This document shows, in pieces, positions 4,240 to 63,641 of a DNA stretch of 64,000 nucleotides. Each line of letters opens with the position of its first letter. Position 1 is the first letter of the stretch. The stretch comes from Thalassovita aquimarina (GTDB lineage: Bacteria; Pseudomonadota; Alphaproteobacteria; Rhodobacterales; Rhodobacteraceae). Both the position numbers and the translations under genes were made by a program. Where the stretch lies: NCBI RefSeq assembly GCF_018219815.1, contig NZ_JADMKU010000011.1:62001-126000 (forward strand), given 5' to 3'. The notes below the pieces were generated by a model that saw nothing but the letters and a program-made list of their open reading frames with translations, was not told where the DNA came from and did not search any database.

Positions 4240-5247
4240 TCAGTGCTTGGCGTTGATCGCCTGTGCCGCGGCGATGTTGTCTTCGCCGACATCACCCTTG
4301 AACTGTTCCCAGACCGGTTTCATCGTGGCGACCCATGCGTCGCGCTGTTCCGGGCTCAGCTGGCGCACGGTGCCGCCGGCGGCGATGATCGCCTGCTTGG
4401 CCTCTTCGTTGACCTTGGTCGATTCCGAATTCCGCGCCGCGGTCACTTCGTCGATGATGGTGGCCAGCTGATCGCGCACGTCGTCCGGCAGGCTGTCCCA
4501 GAAATCGGTCGAGGTCACCAGCAGGTAATCGATGATGCCGTGATTGGTTTCGGTCACGCCATCCTGCACTTCGAAGAACTTCTTGCCGTAGATGTTGGAC
4601 CAGGTGTTTTCCTGACCATCAACAACGCCGGTCTGCAGCGCGCCGTAGACTTCCGAGAACGCCATCGGCTGCGGGCTGCCGCCAAGCGCGGCCATCTGTG
4701 CCTTCAGAACGTCGGAGTTCTGCACCCGGAATTTCAGACCGTTCGCGTCGCTGGGGTTTTCCAGCGGTTTGTTGGCCGACATCTGCTTCATGCCGTTATG
4801 CCAGAAGGCCAGCCCGAGCAGCCCGCGGCGGGTCATCGATTCCTTCATCGCCTGGCCGGTTTCGGAATTCTGAAATTCATCGACCGCGTCGATGTTCTTG
4901 AACATGAAGGGCAGATCGAAGATGCGGAACTTCTTGGTGAACTGTTCGAACTTGGACAGCGACGGCGCGGCCAGTTGCACGTCGCCCTGCAGCATCGCTT
5001 CGAGCACCTGGTTGTCGTTGTAAAGCGTCGAGTTCGGGAAGACCTCCAGGCAGACCTTGCCGTTCATTTCCTCGTTCACGCGCTTTTCCAGAAGCGTCGC
5101 AGCGATGCCTTTCGGGTGCTTGTCGGTGTTGGTCACATGGCTGAACTTGATGACGATTTCGCCTTCGTCGCAGGCGCCCGCGGCCATGACGGCAGAGGCC
5201 GATACGCTCAGCGCCAGAACGGCAGCGGCGGTGGTCAGGAATTTCAT
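4240..5247 (-). CDS. dctP: TRAP transporter periplasmic solute-binding protein (DctP)
   Basis: A 335-residue extracytoplasmic receptor that captures the substrate and hands it to DctQM. The start at 5247 is supported by GGGAGGAG nine bases upstream and by the signal peptide that follows: MKF, a hydrophobic stretch rich in Ala and Leu, then cleavage near VMAAGACDEG. The mature part carries the family pattern (IKFSHVTNTDKHPKG start, QMSANKPLENPSDANGLKFRV near the middle, FSEVYGALQTGVVDGQENTW) including the conserved Arg of LKFRVQ that contacts the substrate carboxylate in this family. It is the first gene of the operon and lies behind a 280-base control region. Confidence 0.95.
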   Translation of the reverse strand: MKFLTTAAAVLALSVSASAVMAAGACDEGEIVIKFSHVTNTDKHPKGIAATLLEKRVNEEMNGKVCLEVFPNSTLYNDNQVLEAMLQGDVQLAAPSLSKFEQFTKKFRIFDLPFMFKNIDAVDEFQNSETGQAMKESMTRRGLLGLAFWHNGMKQMSANKPLENPSDANGLKFRVQNSDVLKAQMAALGGSPQPMAFSEVYGALQTGVVDGQENTWSNIYGKKFFEVQDGVTETNHGIIDYLLVTSTDFWDSLPDDVRDQLATIIDEVTAARNSESTKVNEEAKQAIIAAGGTVRQLSPEQRDAWVATMKPVWEQFKGDVGEDNIAAAQAINAKH

Positions 5248-5437
5248 GTCTGTCTCCTCCCAAGAGATCGTTTGACGTGTGCTTGCACCCCCTCCGGGCG
5301 CGGCATGGGCAACTCTTTCCAATCCGGGGGAACGGCTCAAGAAAAACCGACAATTTCATCCGCAAGCGGGATTATCAATAAAATTTAATAAGTTACGACG
5401 ACATCTCAACCCGCCAAAATATTCTGCAACGCAGCTT

Positions 5438-17681: not shown

Positions 17682-18077
17682 ATGGGCGCTTTGAAAACTT
17701 TTCTTTTCCCGCTCGCGCTGACGGCAGCGGCCGGTTCTCCTCCCTCTCCGGCCGATGCCGCAGCACCTCTGGACCAGGTGCGGATTTTCGCCACCTGCAC
17801 CGGACGGTTATCGGCTCAGATGGAGTATCAGTGGATGTTCGACGGCCCCGGCTCCGAGGTGACCGAAACCACCCGCGCCGCGCTGATCGACATCCTTGAT
17901 GCCATCGTGCCCGCCGATGCGGGCCCCGAGGTGCTGCATTGGCGGATCGAGGCGAAAGCGGCCCAGGCGGCATTGCTGGACCGGGCGGTATTCAACTCAG
18001 ATCGCGATGACGCGCAAATGGCCCAACGGATCGCCCGGCGCCAGATCGACGCCTGCCGGGCCCTGCTTTTGGGCTGA
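17682..18077 (+). CDS. Small secreted protein of unknown function between cobS and cobT
   Basis: A 131-residue unknown protein. It begins with a signal-peptide-like stretch (MGALKTFLFPLALTAAAG, likely cleavage near ADAA), so it is probably exported. Two cysteines (FATCTGR and IDACRALL) could form a disulfide. The remainder is helical and Ala/Asp/Arg rich. No family is recognised. It lies on the same strand as cobS and cobT, 226 bases after cobS and 74 bases before cobT. A cobalamin-related role is suggested only by position. Confidence 0.65.
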   Translation: MGALKTFLFPLALTAAAGSPPSPADAAAPLDQVRIFATCTGRLSAQMEYQWMFDGPGSEVTETTRAALIDILDAIVPADAGPEVLHWRIEAKAAQAALLDRAVFNSDRDDAQMAQRIARRQIDACRALLLG

Positions 18078-59000: not shown

Positions 59001-60071
59001 TTACGCCATGCCGCCCTTGACTAACCGGTCGGCCAGACGGGCATAGGCATCGGCCATCGCCCCTTCCCCGGCCGCGACCGGCGTGCCGCCATCACCGGCA
59101 AGCCGGGTATCTAGATCGATCGGCAATTGCGCCAGCAAGGGCACGCCCAGCTTTTCGGCCTCGGTTGCGACACCGCCATGACCGAAGATATGCGCCTCGT
59201 GGCCGCATTCGGGACAATGGAAGCTGGACATGTTTTCCACCAGCCCGAGGATCGGCGTCTTCAGCGTATTGAACATGTCGATCGCCTTGCGTGCGTCCAG
59301 CAGCGCCACGTCCTGCGGCGTCGACACGATGATCGCCCCGGTCAGCACCGCGCGCTGACACAGGGTCAGCTGCACGTCGCCGGTGCCCGGCGGCAGATCG
59401 ACGATCAGCACGTCCAGTTCGCCCCAGTTCACCTGCCCCAGCATCTGCTGCAGCGCCCCCATCAGCATCGGACCGCGCCAGATCACCGCCTTGTCGGGGT
59501 CCAGCATCAGCCCGATCGACATCAGGGTAACACCATGCGCATGCAGCGGTTCGATGGTCTTGCCGTCGGGGCTGGCGGGGCGCTTGCTGACGCCCATCAT
59601 CCGGGGCTGCGATGGCCCGTATATGTCAGCGTCCAGCAGCCCCACCTTGCGGCCCTGTTTTGCCAGCGCCACGGCGAGGTTCGACGACACGGTGGATTTG
59701 CCCACCCCGCCCTTGCCGGACCCGACCACGAGGATCCGGTCGACACCGGCCGGTTTCAGCGGTTCGGCCTGCGGCTTGGGATGGCCGCCGACTTTCAGGC
59801 TTGGCGCCGGCTTCTGCGGCGCCGGGCCATGAGCGGTCAGCGCCACGGTGACCGACGACACGCCGTCAAGCGACGCCACGCAGCGTTCGGCGGCGGCGCG
59901 CAGCGGCTCCATCGCCCGGGCCGCGTCGGGATCAGGCGCCTCGATGACGAAACGAACCGTGTCGTTCTCGATGCTCAGCGCCCGCAGCATGTCGCGCGAC
60001 ACCAAGGTGCCGCCATCCGGCAGCTCGATCTGTTCCAGTGCCGATTCTATTTTTTCCCGCGTGATTGCCAT
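59001..60071 (-). CDS. mrp: Mrp/NBP35-family Fe-S cluster carrier ATPase
   Basis: A 356-residue P-loop ATPase (ApbC/Mrp) that binds and delivers Fe-S clusters. The N-terminal DUF59-like domain (about 1-90) is followed by the deviant Walker A GSGKGGVGKST, DADIYGPSQPRMMG, DLPPGTGDVQLTLCQ, and the cluster-binding CxxC in FHCPECGHEAHIFG. The ATG at 60071 follows AAGGAG at the right distance. It is single, divergent from the DUF1127 gene. Confidence 0.95.
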   Translation of the reverse strand: MAITREKIESALEQIELPDGGTLVSRDMLRALSIENDTVRFVIEAPDPDAARAMEPLRAAAERCVASLDGVSSVTVALTAHGPAPQKPAPSLKVGGHPKPQAEPLKPAGVDRILVVGSGKGGVGKSTVSSNLAVALAKQGRKVGLLDADIYGPSQPRMMGVSKRPASPDGKTIEPLHAHGVTLMSIGLMLDPDKAVIWRGPMLMGALQQMLGQVNWGELDVLIVDLPPGTGDVQLTLCQRAVLTGAIIVSTPQDVALLDARKAIDMFNTLKTPILGLVENMSSFHCPECGHEAHIFGHGGVATEAEKLGVPLLAQLPIDLDTRLAGDGGTPVAAGEGAMADAYARLADRLVKGGMA

Positions 60072-60375
60072 GCCCATCTCCTTAACGATTCGTCGCACTA
60101 GAGGGCGGTTTTGCGGCGGATACAAGCCCCGGGCGCAAGCCCCCACATGCCAGTTTCCCGCAATTACCCTGCGAAAGCAGCAGCGACAAAGTGCCTTGTG
60201 CTTACCGATTGGTCAAAATTTTCGGCACCTTGAGAATAGGTCAGTATTGCGTATGCATTTCCTGCATAGCTGCATTGCAGCATCGGGCGTTGTGCAAGCG
60301 CAGCAAAAGGACCAGATATGGCACAACAAAACGAAACGCGCCTTCACAGGCTGCCTCAAACGGAAAGATACGACA
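60072..60375 (+). promoter_or_regulatory. Upstream region of the DUF1127-hairpin array locus
   Basis: A 304-base gap between divergent mrp and the DUF1127 gene. It holds the mrp ribosome site, a possible heat-shock-sigma-type promoter (TTGAGA at 60230-60235, 16 bases, TATGCA at 60252-60257, uncertain), and a 29-codon upstream open frame (60318-60407) with its own ribosome site. In R. sphaeroides the matching locus is driven by RpoHI/RpoHII. Confidence 0.35.
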
Positions 60376-60407
60376 ATGGCTACTGCATCCGATATCCGCG
60401 CCCATAA
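60318..60407 (+). CDS. Possible 29-codon upstream ORF overlapping the DUF1127 start
   Basis: ATG at 60318, six bases after AAGGA (60307-60311), reads MAQQNETRLHRLPQTERYDN and nine more codons to TAA at 60405. The frame differs from that of the DUF1127 gene and overlaps its first 32 bases. The ribosome site is better than that of the downstream gene. It could be a leader peptide controlling or coupling translation, or chance. Confidence 0.4.
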   Translation: MAQQNETRLHRLPQTERYDNGYCIRYPRP

Positions 60408-60594
60408 CGGTGGTATTGCCGATCGCATCGCCGCCTTCTTCACCGAAGTGGGCGTGCGCTACGCCCGCTACAAAGCCTACCGCGAGACGCTGAACGAACT
60501 GGCAAGCCTGGGTGACCGCGAACTGCGCGATCTCGGCCTGTGCCGCTCGCAGCTGCGCTCGGTGGCCTACGAACACGCCTACGGCGAGAACTGA
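60376..60594 (+). CDS. DUF1127 small protein, CcaF1-like
   Basis: A 72-residue basic protein with the DUF1127 core (YKAYRETLNELASLGDRELRDLGLCRSQLRSVAY). Small DUF1127 proteins with this Arg-rich helix can bind RNA; CcaF1 of Rhodobacter sphaeroides (71 residues) does so and is encoded directly before the CcsR sRNAs. Here too an array of CCTCCTCCC hairpins begins ten bases after the stop, so the protein and the RNAs would come from one transcript. The ATG at 60376 follows GGAAAG. The symbol ccaF1 is not assigned because orthology was not tested. Confidence 0.9.
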   Translation: MATASDIRAHNGGIADRIAAFFTEVGVRYARYKAYRETLNELASLGDRELRDLGLCRSQLRSVAYEHAYGEN

Positions 60595-60604
60595 TTTCAC
60601 GGAT

Positions 60605-60635
60605 CAGAAGCGCTCTCCTCCTCCCTGCGCTTCTG
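60605..60635 (+). ncRNA. Array hairpin 1
   Basis: Stem CAGAAGCGC/GCGCTTCTG, 13-base loop TCTCCTCCTCCCT with the motif at 60617-60625. The stem can extend past a GGAT bulge by TTTCAC (60595-60600, directly after the gene) with GTGAAA (60635-60640). Confidence 0.85.
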
Positions 60636-60642
60636 TGAAATG

Positions 60643-60676
60643 GCGGTGACATCCTCCTCCTCCCTGATGTCGCCGC
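60643..60676 (+). ncRNA. Array hairpin 2
   Basis: 11-bp stem GCGGTGACATC/GATGTCGCCGC with one G-U pair; 12-base loop CTCCTCCTCCCT, motif 60656-60664. Confidence 0.85.
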
Positions 60677-60685
60677 ACCAAATTC

Positions 60686-60700
60686 GGGCCTGATCAGCCC
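60686..60700 (+). ncRNA. Motif-less small hairpin between array hairpins 2 and 3
   Basis: GGGCCTGATCAGCCC is nearly self-complementary and fills the longest interval of the array (66 bases between motifs). It may be a decayed unit or a processing signal. Confidence 0.35.
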
Positions 60701-60709
60701 AAAGAGATG

Positions 60710-60740
60710 CGCAACCTCTCTCCTCCTCCCCGAGGTTGCG
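60710..60740 (+). ncRNA. Array hairpin 3
   Basis: 9-bp stem CGCAACCTC/GAGGTTGCG; 13-base loop TCTCCTCCTCCCC, motif 60722-60730. Confidence 0.85.
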
Positions 60741-60749
60741 TTGTCAAGA

Positions 60750-60786
60750 GCGGCGGTCCCCCCTCCTCCTCCCTGGGGATCGCCGC
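60750..60786 (+). ncRNA. Array hairpin 4
   Basis: 12-bp stem GCGGCGGTCCCC/GGGGATCGCCGC with one G-U pair; 13-base loop CCTCCTCCTCCCT, motif 60765-60773 and a second overlapping CCTCCTCC register. Confidence 0.85.
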
Positions 60787-60805
60787 GCCTGACATACATA
60801 TTCGA

Positions 60806-60833
60806 CGGGATCCCTCCTCCTCCCTGGATCCCG
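60806..60833 (+). ncRNA. Array hairpin 5
   Basis: 8-bp stem CGGGATCC/GGATCCCG; 12-base loop CTCCTCCTCCCT, motif 60816-60824. Confidence 0.85.
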
Positions 60834-60845
60834 ATCGTTGCCAAG

Positions 60846-60883
60846 AGCGGTGATCCTTCTTCTCCTCCCTTTGGGTCACCGCT
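60846..60883 (+). ncRNA. Array hairpin 6 (variant motif)
   Basis: 11-bp stem AGCGGTGATCC/GGGTCACCGCT with one G-U pair; 16-base loop TTCTTCTCCTCCCTTT carrying TCTCCTCCC (60861-60869), one base away from the consensus. Confidence 0.8.
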
Positions 60884-60895
60884 TCTTGCACCGAA

Positions 60896-60929
60896 TACCG
60901 CGGCCCCCTCCTCCCTTGGGTCGCCGGTA
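60896..60929 (+). ncRNA. Array hairpin 7
   Basis: Stem TACCGCGGCCC/GGGTCGCCGGTA with one bulge and one G-U pair; 11-base loop CCTCCTCCCTT, motif 60907-60915. Confidence 0.8.
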
Positions 60930-60934
60930 CAAAG

Positions 60935-60976
60935 ACGGCGGCGCCCCTCCTCCCTTGGCGCCGCCGTTTTTTATTT
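60935..60976 (+). terminator. Array hairpin 8, intrinsic terminator
   Basis: Perfect 11-bp stem ACGGCGGCGCC/GGCGCCGCCGT; 11-base loop CCTCCTCCCTT, motif 60946-60954; then TTTTTATTTT. It ends both the array and the DUF1127 transcript. Confidence 0.92.
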
Positions 60977-61211: not shown

Positions 61212-63557
61212 TCAAAACGGCACGTCGTCGGCGCCGGTCACGAACCGCGCCACCACCTTTTTCACCCCGGCCTTTTCGAAATCGACCTCGAGCTTGTCGC
61301 CCTCGATCCCGATAATCGCGCCATAGCCGAACTTTTGGTGAAACACCCGTTCGCCGACCGTGTGGGCGCTGACCGCGTCAAGATCGATTACCGTGTTGCG
61401 GGTTTCACGCGGCTGGCTGACCGGGCGGGCGGAACTGCGCGATTGCATCCGTTTCCAGCCCGGCGAGTTGTAGACATTGGCCTCCGACGCGCGGGTTTCG
61501 ATGCCCGACTGCACCGGCGCCGCCGCGCCGTAGCCGCCACCATAGAGCCCCGGCGGGGTCAGCACCTCGACATGTTCCTCGGGCAACTCATCAATGAAGC
61601 GCGACGGCAGTTGCGATTGCCACTGGCCGAAGACGCGGCGGTTGCCGGCGAAGGAAATGGTGCAAATCTCCTCGGCCCTCGTGATGCCGACATAGGCGAG
61701 GCGGCGTTCTTCCTCCAGCCCCTTGAGGCCGGTTTCGTCCATCGAGCGTTGCGACGGGAACAGCCCGTCTTCCCAGCCCGGCAGGAACACGGCGGGGAAT
61801 TCCAGCCCCTTGGCCGCGTGCAGGGTCATGATCGACACCTTGGCGCCGTCATCGCCCTTGTCATTGTCCATGATCAGCGCCACGTGTTCGAGGAAGCCAG
61901 CAAGGTTTTCGAACTGTTCCAGCGCCTTGACCAGTTCCTTTAAGTTTTCCAGACGGCCCGGTGCCTCCGGCGTCTTGTCGTTCTGCCACATGGCGGTGTA
62001 GCCGGATTCGTCGAGGATGATCTCGGCCAGTTCCATGTGGGTGAGATCGGGATCGCCCGCCATCCGGCCCCAACGGTCGATGCCGTCGATCAGCAGGGCC
62101 AGTTCCTTGGCGCCCTTGCCGCCGAGGCCCTTTTCGTCGAGCAGGATTCGCGCGCCTTCGACCAGCGGAACACCGTTGGACCGCGCCGCCATCTGGATTT
62201 TCTGCTGCGCCTTGTCGCCAAGGCCGCGCTTGGGGGTGTTCACGATCCGCTCGAAGGCCAGATCGTCGGTGGGGCTGACCACGACGCGGAAATAGGCCAT
62301 CGCGTCGCGAATCTCCATCCGCTCGTAAAAGCGCGGCCCGCCGATGACGCGATAGGGCAAGCCGATGGTCAGGAAGCGATCCTCGAAGGCGCGCATCTGA
62401 TGCGAGGCACGGACCAGAATCGCGATATCATCCAGATCGAACGGGCGCATGCCGCGTGTACCGCTTTGCATCGCCTCGATCTCCTCGCCGATCCAGCGGG
62501 CTTCTTCCTCGCCGTCCCAATGGCCGATCAGGCGAACCTTTTCGCCATGTTCGGATTCGGTCCAGAGCGTTTTGCCCAAACGCCCCTCATTGCCCGAAAT
62601 CACGTTCGAAGCGGCGGCCAGGATATGCGGGGTCGACCGGTAATTCTGCTCCAGCCGAACCACCTGCGCGCCGGGAAAATCCTTTTCGAACCGCAGGATA
62701 TTGCCCACTTCTGCACCGCGCCAGCCATAGATAGACTGATCGTCGTCTCCGACGCAGCAGATATTCTTGTGCCCGCCCGCCAGCAGCCGCAGCCACAGGT
62801 ATTGGGCCACGTTGGTATCCTGATATTCGTCGACAAGGATGTATTTGAACCAGCGGCGGTATTGCGCCAGCACGTCGTCGTGCTGCTGGAAGATCGTCAC
62901 CATGTGCAGCAGCAGGTCGCCGAAATCGGTGGCGTTCAATTCGCGCAACCGGGTCTGGTACTGGGTGTAAAGCTCGATCCCGCGGCCATTGAATGCCCCG
63001 GCCTCGGCCCCCGGCACGTTTTCCGGCGTCCAGGCGCGGTTTTTCCAGTGATCGATGATCCCGGCCAGTTGCCGCGCGGGCCAGCGCTTGTCGTCGATAT
63101 TGTTGGCCGCGATCAGCTGTTTCAGCAGCCTGATCTGGTCGTCGGTGTCCAGAATGGTGAAGTTCGACTTCAACCCCACCAACTCGGCATGACGGCGCAA
63201 CAGCTTGACGCAGATCGCGTGGAAGGTGCCGAGCCACGGCATGCCCTCGACCGCCTGGCCCAGCATCCGACCGACGCGCTCCTTCATTTCCCGCGCTGCC
63301 TTGTTGGTGAAGGTGACCGAGAGGATCTCGTTCGGTTGCGCCCGGCCGGTGTTGAGCAAGTGCACGATCCGCGCGGTCAGCGCCTTGGTCTTGCCCGTGC
63401 CGGCGCCCGCCAGCATCAGGACGGGACCATCCAGCGCCTCGACCGCGGCGCGCTGCGCCGGGTTCAGTTCATCCAGATAGGGCGCCGGCCGCGCCGCCAT
63501 GGCGCGGGCCGACAGCGAGGCGCCTTCGAAGGCGTCATTTTCGTCGAAACTGCTCAT
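61212..63557 (-). CDS. uvrD: ATP-dependent DNA helicase UvrD/PcrA
   Basis: A 781-residue superfamily 1A helicase used in nucleotide excision and mismatch repair. Motifs in order: Walker A AGAGTGKTKALTARI, LSVTFTNKAAREMKERV, LVDEYQDTNVAQYLWL, GDDDQSIYGWRGAEVGNI, LEQNYRSTPHIL, IMTLHAAKGLEFPAVFLPGWEDGLFP and AYVGITRAEE. A C-terminal Tudor-like domain (about 715-781, GERVFHQKFGYGAIIGIEGDKLEVDFEKAG) binds RNA polymerase in relatives. The ATG at 63557 is preferred over a TTG three codons earlier. Confidence 0.95.
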   Translation of the reverse strand: MSSFDENDAFEGASLSARAMAARPAPYLDELNPAQRAAVEALDGPVLMLAGAGTGKTKALTARIVHLLNTGRAQPNEILSVTFTNKAAREMKERVGRMLGQAVEGMPWLGTFHAICVKLLRRHAELVGLKSNFTILDTDDQIRLLKQLIAANNIDDKRWPARQLAGIIDHWKNRAWTPENVPGAEAGAFNGRGIELYTQYQTRLRELNATDFGDLLLHMVTIFQQHDDVLAQYRRWFKYILVDEYQDTNVAQYLWLRLLAGGHKNICCVGDDDQSIYGWRGAEVGNILRFEKDFPGAQVVRLEQNYRSTPHILAAASNVISGNEGRLGKTLWTESEHGEKVRLIGHWDGEEEARWIGEEIEAMQSGTRGMRPFDLDDIAILVRASHQMRAFEDRFLTIGLPYRVIGGPRFYERMEIRDAMAYFRVVVSPTDDLAFERIVNTPKRGLGDKAQQKIQMAARSNGVPLVEGARILLDEKGLGGKGAKELALLIDGIDRWGRMAGDPDLTHMELAEIILDESGYTAMWQNDKTPEAPGRLENLKELVKALEQFENLAGFLEHVALIMDNDKGDDGAKVSIMTLHAAKGLEFPAVFLPGWEDGLFPSQRSMDETGLKGLEEERRLAYVGITRAEEICTISFAGNRRVFGQWQSQLPSRFIDELPEEHVEVLTPPGLYGGGYGAAAPVQSGIETRASEANVYNSPGWKRMQSRSSARPVSQPRETRNTVIDLDAVSAHTVGERVFHQKFGYGAIIGIEGDKLEVDFEKAGVKKVVARFVTGADDVPF

Positions 63558-63641
63558 ACCCGCCAATCTAGCGCGGGTGACGGACGAGATAAAGAGACGT
63601 TCTTATTCTGTTCTTCAGCTTTTCTCTCCGCCGCAGCGGAC

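Follow-up and report, generated by a model that had tools for sequence, protein, structure and literature searches.

A DUF1127 gene followed by an eight-hairpin RNA array in Thalassovita aquimarina resembles the ccaF1-CcsR1-4 locus

Behind a small DUF1127 gene of Thalassovita aquimarina stands a row of hairpins that present almost the same C-rich loop eight times over. What kind of locus is this, into how many RNA units does the array divide, and what might these units do? We addressed these questions in a 64,000-nucleotide stretch of the genome, hereafter called the window, and in related genomes. Our preferred answer, to which we assign a probability of roughly 0.7, is that the locus is the local version of ccaF1-CcsR1-4 and gives rise to four processed sRNAs that silence GGGAGGAG-type genes under stress. 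The layout can be read directly from the DNA, and that it is transcribed we infer.

Anatomy of the locus

The region contains the following features, with positions numbered from the first letter of the window.

59001-60101, minus strand: apbC/mrp, divergent flank and conserved neighbour (Pfam ParA/NUBPL, E 2.2e-97)
60235-60304, plus strand: conserved block upstream of the DUF1127 gene, a candidate promoter/operator with the inverted repeat TATGCATttCTGCATA (alignment of nine genus genomes)
60376-60594, plus strand: CcaF1-like DUF1127 gene, 72 amino acids (PF06568, E 1.5e-12, 47.4 bits against a cut-off of 23.3)
60601-60681, plus strand: CcsR-like module 1, with hairpins 1 (60605-60635) and 2 (60643-60676); RF02791 positions 1-83 of 83, 40.4 bits, E 2.9e-8
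60706-60791, plus strand: CcsR-like module 2, with hairpins 3 (60709-60741) and 4 (60742-60794); RF02791 1-83 of 83, 35.5 bits, E 8.4e-7
60798-60887, plus strand: CcsR-like module 3, with hairpins 5 (60806-60833) and 6 (60839-60890, loop UCUCCUCCC); RF02791 1-83 of 83, 40.5 bits, E 2.8e-8
60893-60972, plus strand: CcsR-like module 4, with hairpins 7 (60900-60924) and 8 (60931-60971, with its T tract the terminator); RF02791 1-83 of 83, 40.5 bits, E 2.7e-8
61212-63566, minus strand: uvrD/pcrA helicase, convergent flank and conserved neighbour (Pfam UvrD)

An NCBIfam search with the DUF1127 protein returned no family at E 0.001. The genome carries four DUF1127 genes, and only the one in the window has an array within about 1.5 kb; the other three were therefore rejected as array hosts. 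Upstream of the window gene, the block of about 70 bp at 60235-60304 is strongly conserved in the genus. No sigma-70-type site was found in the region upstream of the gene, and an RpoH promoter was likewise not established there.

The eight stem-loops span 60605-60971, and the first loop motif lies 23 nt from the stop codon of the DUF1127 gene. All eight hairpins have an open loop with CUCCUCCC. A sequence-only reading of this DNA had described a common 9-base loop, and this holds for seven of the eight hairpins, which carry the full CCUCCUCCC, but not for copy 6, which reads UCUCCUCCC. The motif CTCCTCCC occurs in the array at 60618, 60657, 60723, 60766, 60817, 60862, 60908 and 60947, always on the plus strand and always within a hairpin (7-18 pairs each), with loop-to-loop distances of 39, 66, 43, 51, 45, 46 and 39. 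The window as a whole has 10 copies where 2.26 would be expected and where none of 100 shuffles exceeds 7, a density beyond chance.

Structure and its conservation

The array folds at -182.1 kcal/mol, whereas shuffled versions reach -118.2 on average (sd 5.2; z -12.4), and none of 100 shuffles is as good. The loop 8-mers are exposed, with a mean probability of being unpaired of at least 0.999. The stems of hairpins 1-8 score 24, 28, 25, 42, 22, 33, 19 and 39, values that 0 to 3% of placements in shuffled flanks attain. Nine arrays from the genus could be aligned to a structure of 87 pairs, in which 94.7% of 768 cells pair; since this alignment also supplied the structure, the percentage is favoured. 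Pairs changed on both sides number 32, against 16.9 in shuffles and at most 11 with slid partners, and cells changed on both sides number 73, against 24.7 and at most 16. Further pair types in this alignment show no excess over shuffles (65 versus 64.9). The comparison of folds with shuffles, the stem-score placements and the compensatory changes rule out a chance C-rich repeat. Folding, covariation and loop accessibility thus bear out the eight hairpins that had been proposed behind the DUF1127 gene, together with the proposal that their stems are compensated around a fixed, exposed loop.

Two details of the initial description require adjustment. The stems had been called unrelated, and they are indeed divergent, but not wholly so: weak and strong stems alternate, and a GCGG stretch recurs in the 5' arm of the second hairpin of each pair. 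The array had also been said to end in a terminator. A terminator is present, but not as an extra element, since it is the eighth hairpin itself (a 15-pair stem followed by TTTTTT); a simple terminator scan missed it because its loop of 11 exceeds the limit of 8 set in the scan. At least four T residues follow the last stem of the array in each of the nine genus genomes.

Eight hairpins form four units

The Rfam CcsR1 model (RF02791) is 83 nt long, comprises two hairpins and has a gathering score of 65.3. Its full-length matches tile the window array four times, and all four (40.4, 35.5, 40.5 and 40.5 bits) remain below the gathering score; the Rfam scan of the window returned no family at or above its own gathering score. 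As positive controls we took two Cereibacter arrays. In C. johrii the model gives 106.2 bits for the first module and 39.4-46.6 for its three sisters, and in C. ovatus the first module scores 83.8 and the others 40.4-48.1. The sister modules of Cereibacter are therefore also below 65.3 (39.4-48.1), so that the cut-off sets CcsR1 apart even from the modules next to it. Three window modules (40.4-40.5 bits) fall within the range of these sisters and one (35.5) just below it. On eight array-free loci the model gave no match at E 0.01.

The pairwise alternation extends beyond the window. In 92 of 104 arrays that have four or more hairpins, even hairpins are on average stronger than odd ones, and the mean stem scores over all arrays are 29.7 and 23.1, respectively (Wilcoxon 2e-14); when the pairing is shifted by one step the difference reverses and is positive in only 19 of 97 arrays. 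GCGG-type 5' arms are found in 346 of 473 even hairpins versus 117 of 506 odd ones, and the median hairpin spacing is 40 within pairs and 51 between pairs. RSs0680a, later named CcsR1, has two stem-loops according to section 2.7 of PMC3927594. Because RF02791 fits four times at full length, RSs0680a has two stem-loops and the hairpins alternate pairwise, we count the eight hairpins as four units. The sequence-only reading had counted eight units rather than the four of R. sphaeroides, a count that mistakes hairpins for modules, as C. johrii likewise has eight hairpins. Its suggestion that the high copy number points to an unusual dosage fails for the same reason, C. johrii having equally eight hairpins and four CcsR1 matches, and an exceptional eight-copy expansion is ruled out by these matches together with the hairpin counts of relatives and the C. 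johrii array.

Relationship to known RNAs

The window locus resembles ccaF1-CcsR1-4 (RSP_6037-RSs0680a-d, RF02791) in its DUF1127 gene directly upstream, its two-hairpin modules with CCUCCUCCC loops, its gene neighbourhood and its 3' terminator. With the C. johrii (L147) and C. ovatus (L150) loci it shares both the apbC and uvrD flanks and the eight hairpins in four modules. Judged by sequence and gene order, it is a syntenic relative of ccaF1-CcsR1-4 and a member of an already described arrangement, because the C. johrii locus combines eight hairpins, four CcsR1 matches and the same apbC and uvrD flanks. The link to CcaF1-CcsR1-4 and the cuckoo RNAs had been drawn at the outset, and the RF02791 fits and common flanks confirm it. 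There are also differences. All window modules score below the RF02791 gathering score, a longer loop, CUCCUCCUCCC, is present in five of the eight window copies, and the DUF1127 protein is only 42% identical to the 71-amino-acid protein of G083, a genome that we call R. sphaeroides-like for its 100% identical reaction centre H subunit. The C. johrii protein is 99% identical to that of G083.

A scan for loci in named genomes gave 66 loci, and a named-genome profile scan with an alignment of 21 DUF1127 sequences revealed no conserved stretch. Within flanks of at most 2.5 kb, apbC accompanies 54 of the 66 loci, uvrD 39, and both 35. A DUF1127 ORF lies directly upstream of the array at 40 of 48 loci (three of the eight without one hold fewer than two strict hairpins) and at all 13 array loci that were added later.

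As in cuckoo RNAs, adjacent hairpins of the window array have variable, compensated stems and CCUCCUCCC loops (seven of eight in full, and all eight with CUCCUCCC). Reinkensmeier and Giegerich are said to have described, in 2015, cuckoo RNAs with two to four hairpins each; the window array would offer eight in a row if unprocessed and two per module if processed. DUF1127 genes with CcsR-like sRNAs constitute the CIN1 locus, as cited in PMC10253847. The array also resembles alpha-r14/NfeR1 of Sinorhizobium (RF02344), which has repeated hairpins with the same anti-Shine-Dalgarno loop. This model gives two matches over the array, at 47.1 and 41 bits, below its gathering score of 58.8. It passes in a genus relative (L036 in G001, 60.1 versus 58.8), where the CcsR1 model fails, so that assignment to a single family is not clear-cut. 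According to PMC10746234, NfeR1 consists of three hairpins and is transcribed from a promoter of its own; the window array, unlike this independent three-hairpin sRNA gene, is the eight-hairpin tail of a DUF1127 gene.

Candidate target genes

The anti-Shine-Dalgarno character of the loop had been recognized from the start, and it stands. Identity with the anti-Shine-Dalgarno core of 16S rRNA, which had also been claimed, is an overstatement, since the 16S 3' end presumably shares only CCUCCU with the array loop. The window's genome contains 31 instances of GGGAGGAG ahead of a start codon, versus 10 for the reversed pattern. An excess of this kind is present in eight of nine genus genomes, G007 having none (26 versus 28); because GGGAGGAG is a good Shine-Dalgarno sequence anyway, the excess is weakened as evidence for targeting. 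Starts preceded by TAAGGAGG show no excess (15 versus 14 reversed). Removing three second starts, one match antisense to the array, three without a usable ORF and one without a locus left 23 sites, of which 22 were run against Pfam (L089, 56 amino acids, was left out; L063 and L086 gave no family).

Four of the 24 DctP genes in this genome have GGGAGGAG at the start (hypergeometric 6e-6 to 8e-6, assuming 4000-4300 genes and with the family picked after the matches had been seen). One of them lies in the window:

5254-5261, minus strand: GGGAGGAG Shine-Dalgarno of a DctP gene (coding region about 4243-5247; Pfam DctP, E 1.6e-107), a candidate target

According to Pfam, further GGGAGGAG starts belong to two other solute-binding proteins, PaaA, a FadL-type porin, an AMP ligase, acetyl-CoA synthetase (acs), an acyl-CoA dehydrogenase, a thiolase, an FGGY kinase and a CO-dehydrogenase FAD-subunit-type gene. 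A response regulator, a T3SS/flagellar-type ATPase and a short-chain dehydrogenase are off this theme. The share of solute-binding proteins does not differ significantly between GGGAGGAG and TAAGGAGG starts, either in this genome (6 of 23 versus 0 of 14, p 0.065) or in three genomes together (13 of 79 versus 0 of 14, p 0.20). One of the 15 TAAGGAGG matches (L217) was left out of the Pfam scan. For the two added genomes, G008 contributed 23 sites (27 matches less one in the array and three second starts) and G005 33 (36 less one in the array and two second starts); 34 of these 56 were scanned with Pfam, some were named by identity, and the rest were counted as not solute-binding. Seven of the 23 own sites have a counterpart with the same site in G008 that is 83-96% identical, and two have clear ones in G005, a sharing for which common ancestry alone could account.

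Over 400 heuristically called genes, the pairing energy between loop and ribosome site has a median of -9.2 kcal/mol and a best 1% of -18.2, whereas the 23 GGGAGGAG sites pair at -16.7 to -23.4. In G008 and G005, pdhA has a GGGAGGAG site; in the window's genome, it has a variant that can still pair. This variant pairs with the loop at -21.2 kcal/mol, a value that one of the 400 called genes reaches, that one being antisense to the array. Across nine genus genomes pdhA pairing ranges from -13.2 to -22.4, and in three genomes outside the genus from -11.1 to -16.9; it is weak in R. sphaeroides-like G083 (-12.4) and in G206 (-11.1). The short list of candidates (DctP genes, acs, pdhA, the CO-dehydrogenase-type gene, the thiolase and the acyl-CoA dehydrogenase) is partly reminiscent of the influence on C1 metabolism and pyruvate dehydrogenase that has been reported for CcsR.

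The window contains two CTCCTCCC copies besides those of the array. One is the complement of the DctP Shine-Dalgarno at 5254-5261. The other, at 17737, sits in a 12-pair hairpin near the apparent start of a coding region; lone and without an array, it was rejected as part of the system and is probably due to chance.

Proposed function and alternatives

On our preferred reading, a single transcript would contain the DUF1127 mRNA, whose 3' UTR would consist of four two-hairpin RNAs closed by the intrinsic terminator. By analogy with R. sphaeroides, RNase E acting with the DUF1127 protein would cut the linkers and release sRNAs of about 80 nt. The two CUCCUCCC loops of each sRNA could then base-pair with Shine-Dalgarno sites of the GGGAGGAG type and thereby prevent translation, and under stress the predicted targets, genes for uptake and for carbon and CoA metabolism, would be repressed. 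The stems, serving only to present the loop and protect the RNA, could change freely provided that pairing is kept. Comparable steps have been published. For the R. sphaeroides locus, co-transcription, an RpoHI/RpoHII promoter and RNase E processing are reported (PMC10253847), with involvement of CcaF1 in the cutting (PMC10253847, PMC8307010, PMC8625941, PMC7866481); CcsR RNAs target flhR and affect pyruvate dehydrogenase (PMC8307010, PMC8625941); and the identical loops of NfeR1 base-pair at the translation start of mRNAs and so silence them (PMC10746234).

Many identical loops exposed on variable stems would also suit a sponge in the style of CsrB/RsmZ, in which the loops titrate other, G-rich RNAs or a protein that binds RNA, be it the DUF1127 protein, Hfq or another protein with a preference for C-rich sequence, and mRNA silencing is secondary. 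The range of 0 to 26 hairpins among loci is compatible with such a role, as is the report that CcaF1 binds RNA and affects CcsR levels (PMC10253847). We nevertheless consider a sponge unlikely, since the two-hairpin layout fits processed sRNAs (RF02791), the NfeR1 loops act by base pairing with mRNA (PMC10746234), and the DUF1127 protein may instead work by protein contacts, as has been reported for Salmonella YjiS and in Agrobacterium (PMC12501420). The decoy or titration role that had been suggested for the loops, whether directed at ribosome sites or at a protein, is accordingly possible but less supported than direct pairing with mRNA ribosome sites as in NfeR1. If the eight loops were instead generic anti-Shine-Dalgarno decoys that act on all mRNAs and slow overall translation, the CCUCCU that we take them to share with the 16S tail would be their basis; we give this hardly any credence, because most ribosome sites pair poorly with the loop (median -9.2, as compared with -16.7 to -23.4 at the 23 sites with GGGAGGAG).

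The position of the array directly behind the stop codon, with the terminator included, could alternatively indicate a role in cis, the hairpins stabilizing or terminating the DUF1127 mRNA or setting its turnover and the loop being kept for contact with Rho or an RNase. In S. meliloti, C-rich codons of a different DUF1127 gene have been proposed as a Rho site (PMC12218461). Strongly structured RNA is a poor substrate for Rho, and a purely local role is hard to reconcile with a loop that is fixed across many genera while the stems drift, and with four matches to the model of a trans-acting sRNA (RF02791), and we regard it as very improbable. Trans-acting sRNAs released from a DUF1127 transcript thus remain our preferred reading. 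It connects this genome with an already studied stress circuit and sets the number of units right.

Copy number among relatives

Hairpin numbers were determined at 116 loci, nearly all selected for holding an array or a DUF1127 relative; the loci are not one per species (for instance, two are from C. johrii and two from G021), and some are cut by contig ends. The commonest number is 8, found at 24 loci of which seven belong to the window's genus, followed by 10 (22 loci), with a range of 0-26; the hairpin rule of this count is looser than the strict rule, so that counts for a locus can differ (18 versus 26 at L095). Among the 66 named loci, 10 hairpins (19 loci) are ahead of 8 (10 loci). Within the window's genus, seven genomes have 8 hairpins, one has 10 and one has 7. 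Eight hairpins in four pairs are also present in C. johrii, Luteovulum (Cereibacter) azotoformans and C. ovatus, and C. changlensis has 13. In G083 we found 14 hairpins and seven CcsR1 matches, one not full length, with five modules as near-identical 114-bp repeats; seven modules against the four published would reflect either another strain, a close species or an incomplete published count.

In a wider sample of the family, 335 of 394 genomes contain one or more pairs of CTCCTCCC copies at hairpin spacing and 59 have none; single pairs may be due to chance because a reversed control also matches in some genomes. The largest number of such pairs is 25, in G196. The window's genome holds 67 copies of CTCCTCCC, 59 of them outside the array, and hairpins were checked at those within the loci analysed. 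No copy-number survey of such arrays was found among the titles and abstracts of the matches listed, and we make no claim to priority.

The locus, its flanks and the paired-hairpin layout are therefore widespread in the family while copy number varies freely, so that natural arrays can be compared to test for effects of sRNA dosage. From the range of 0 to 26 hairpins per locus and the near-identical 114-bp or 140-bp repeats of some genomes, one may speculate that tandem gain and loss of modules acts as a dosage dial, the number of loops per DUF1127 message setting the strength of a shared regulon family-wide. We hold this to be doubtful; if true, the regulon would consist of TRAP/ABC uptake genes and genes that supply acetyl-CoA.

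Several individual loci deserve mention. Loop pairs with the same motif lie outside the main array at L034 (G004:C28), where no DUF1127 gene was found upstream, and on three contigs of G071 (C16, C17 and C62); these are possibly stand-alone cuckoo-type sRNAs. The largest array, L095 (G196:C1:334000-338000), has 26 hairpins by the looser rule and 18 by the strict one, and contains tandem repeats of about 140 bp that hold three loops. Genome G021 has two DUF1127 genes, each followed by an array of its own (L096 and L097).
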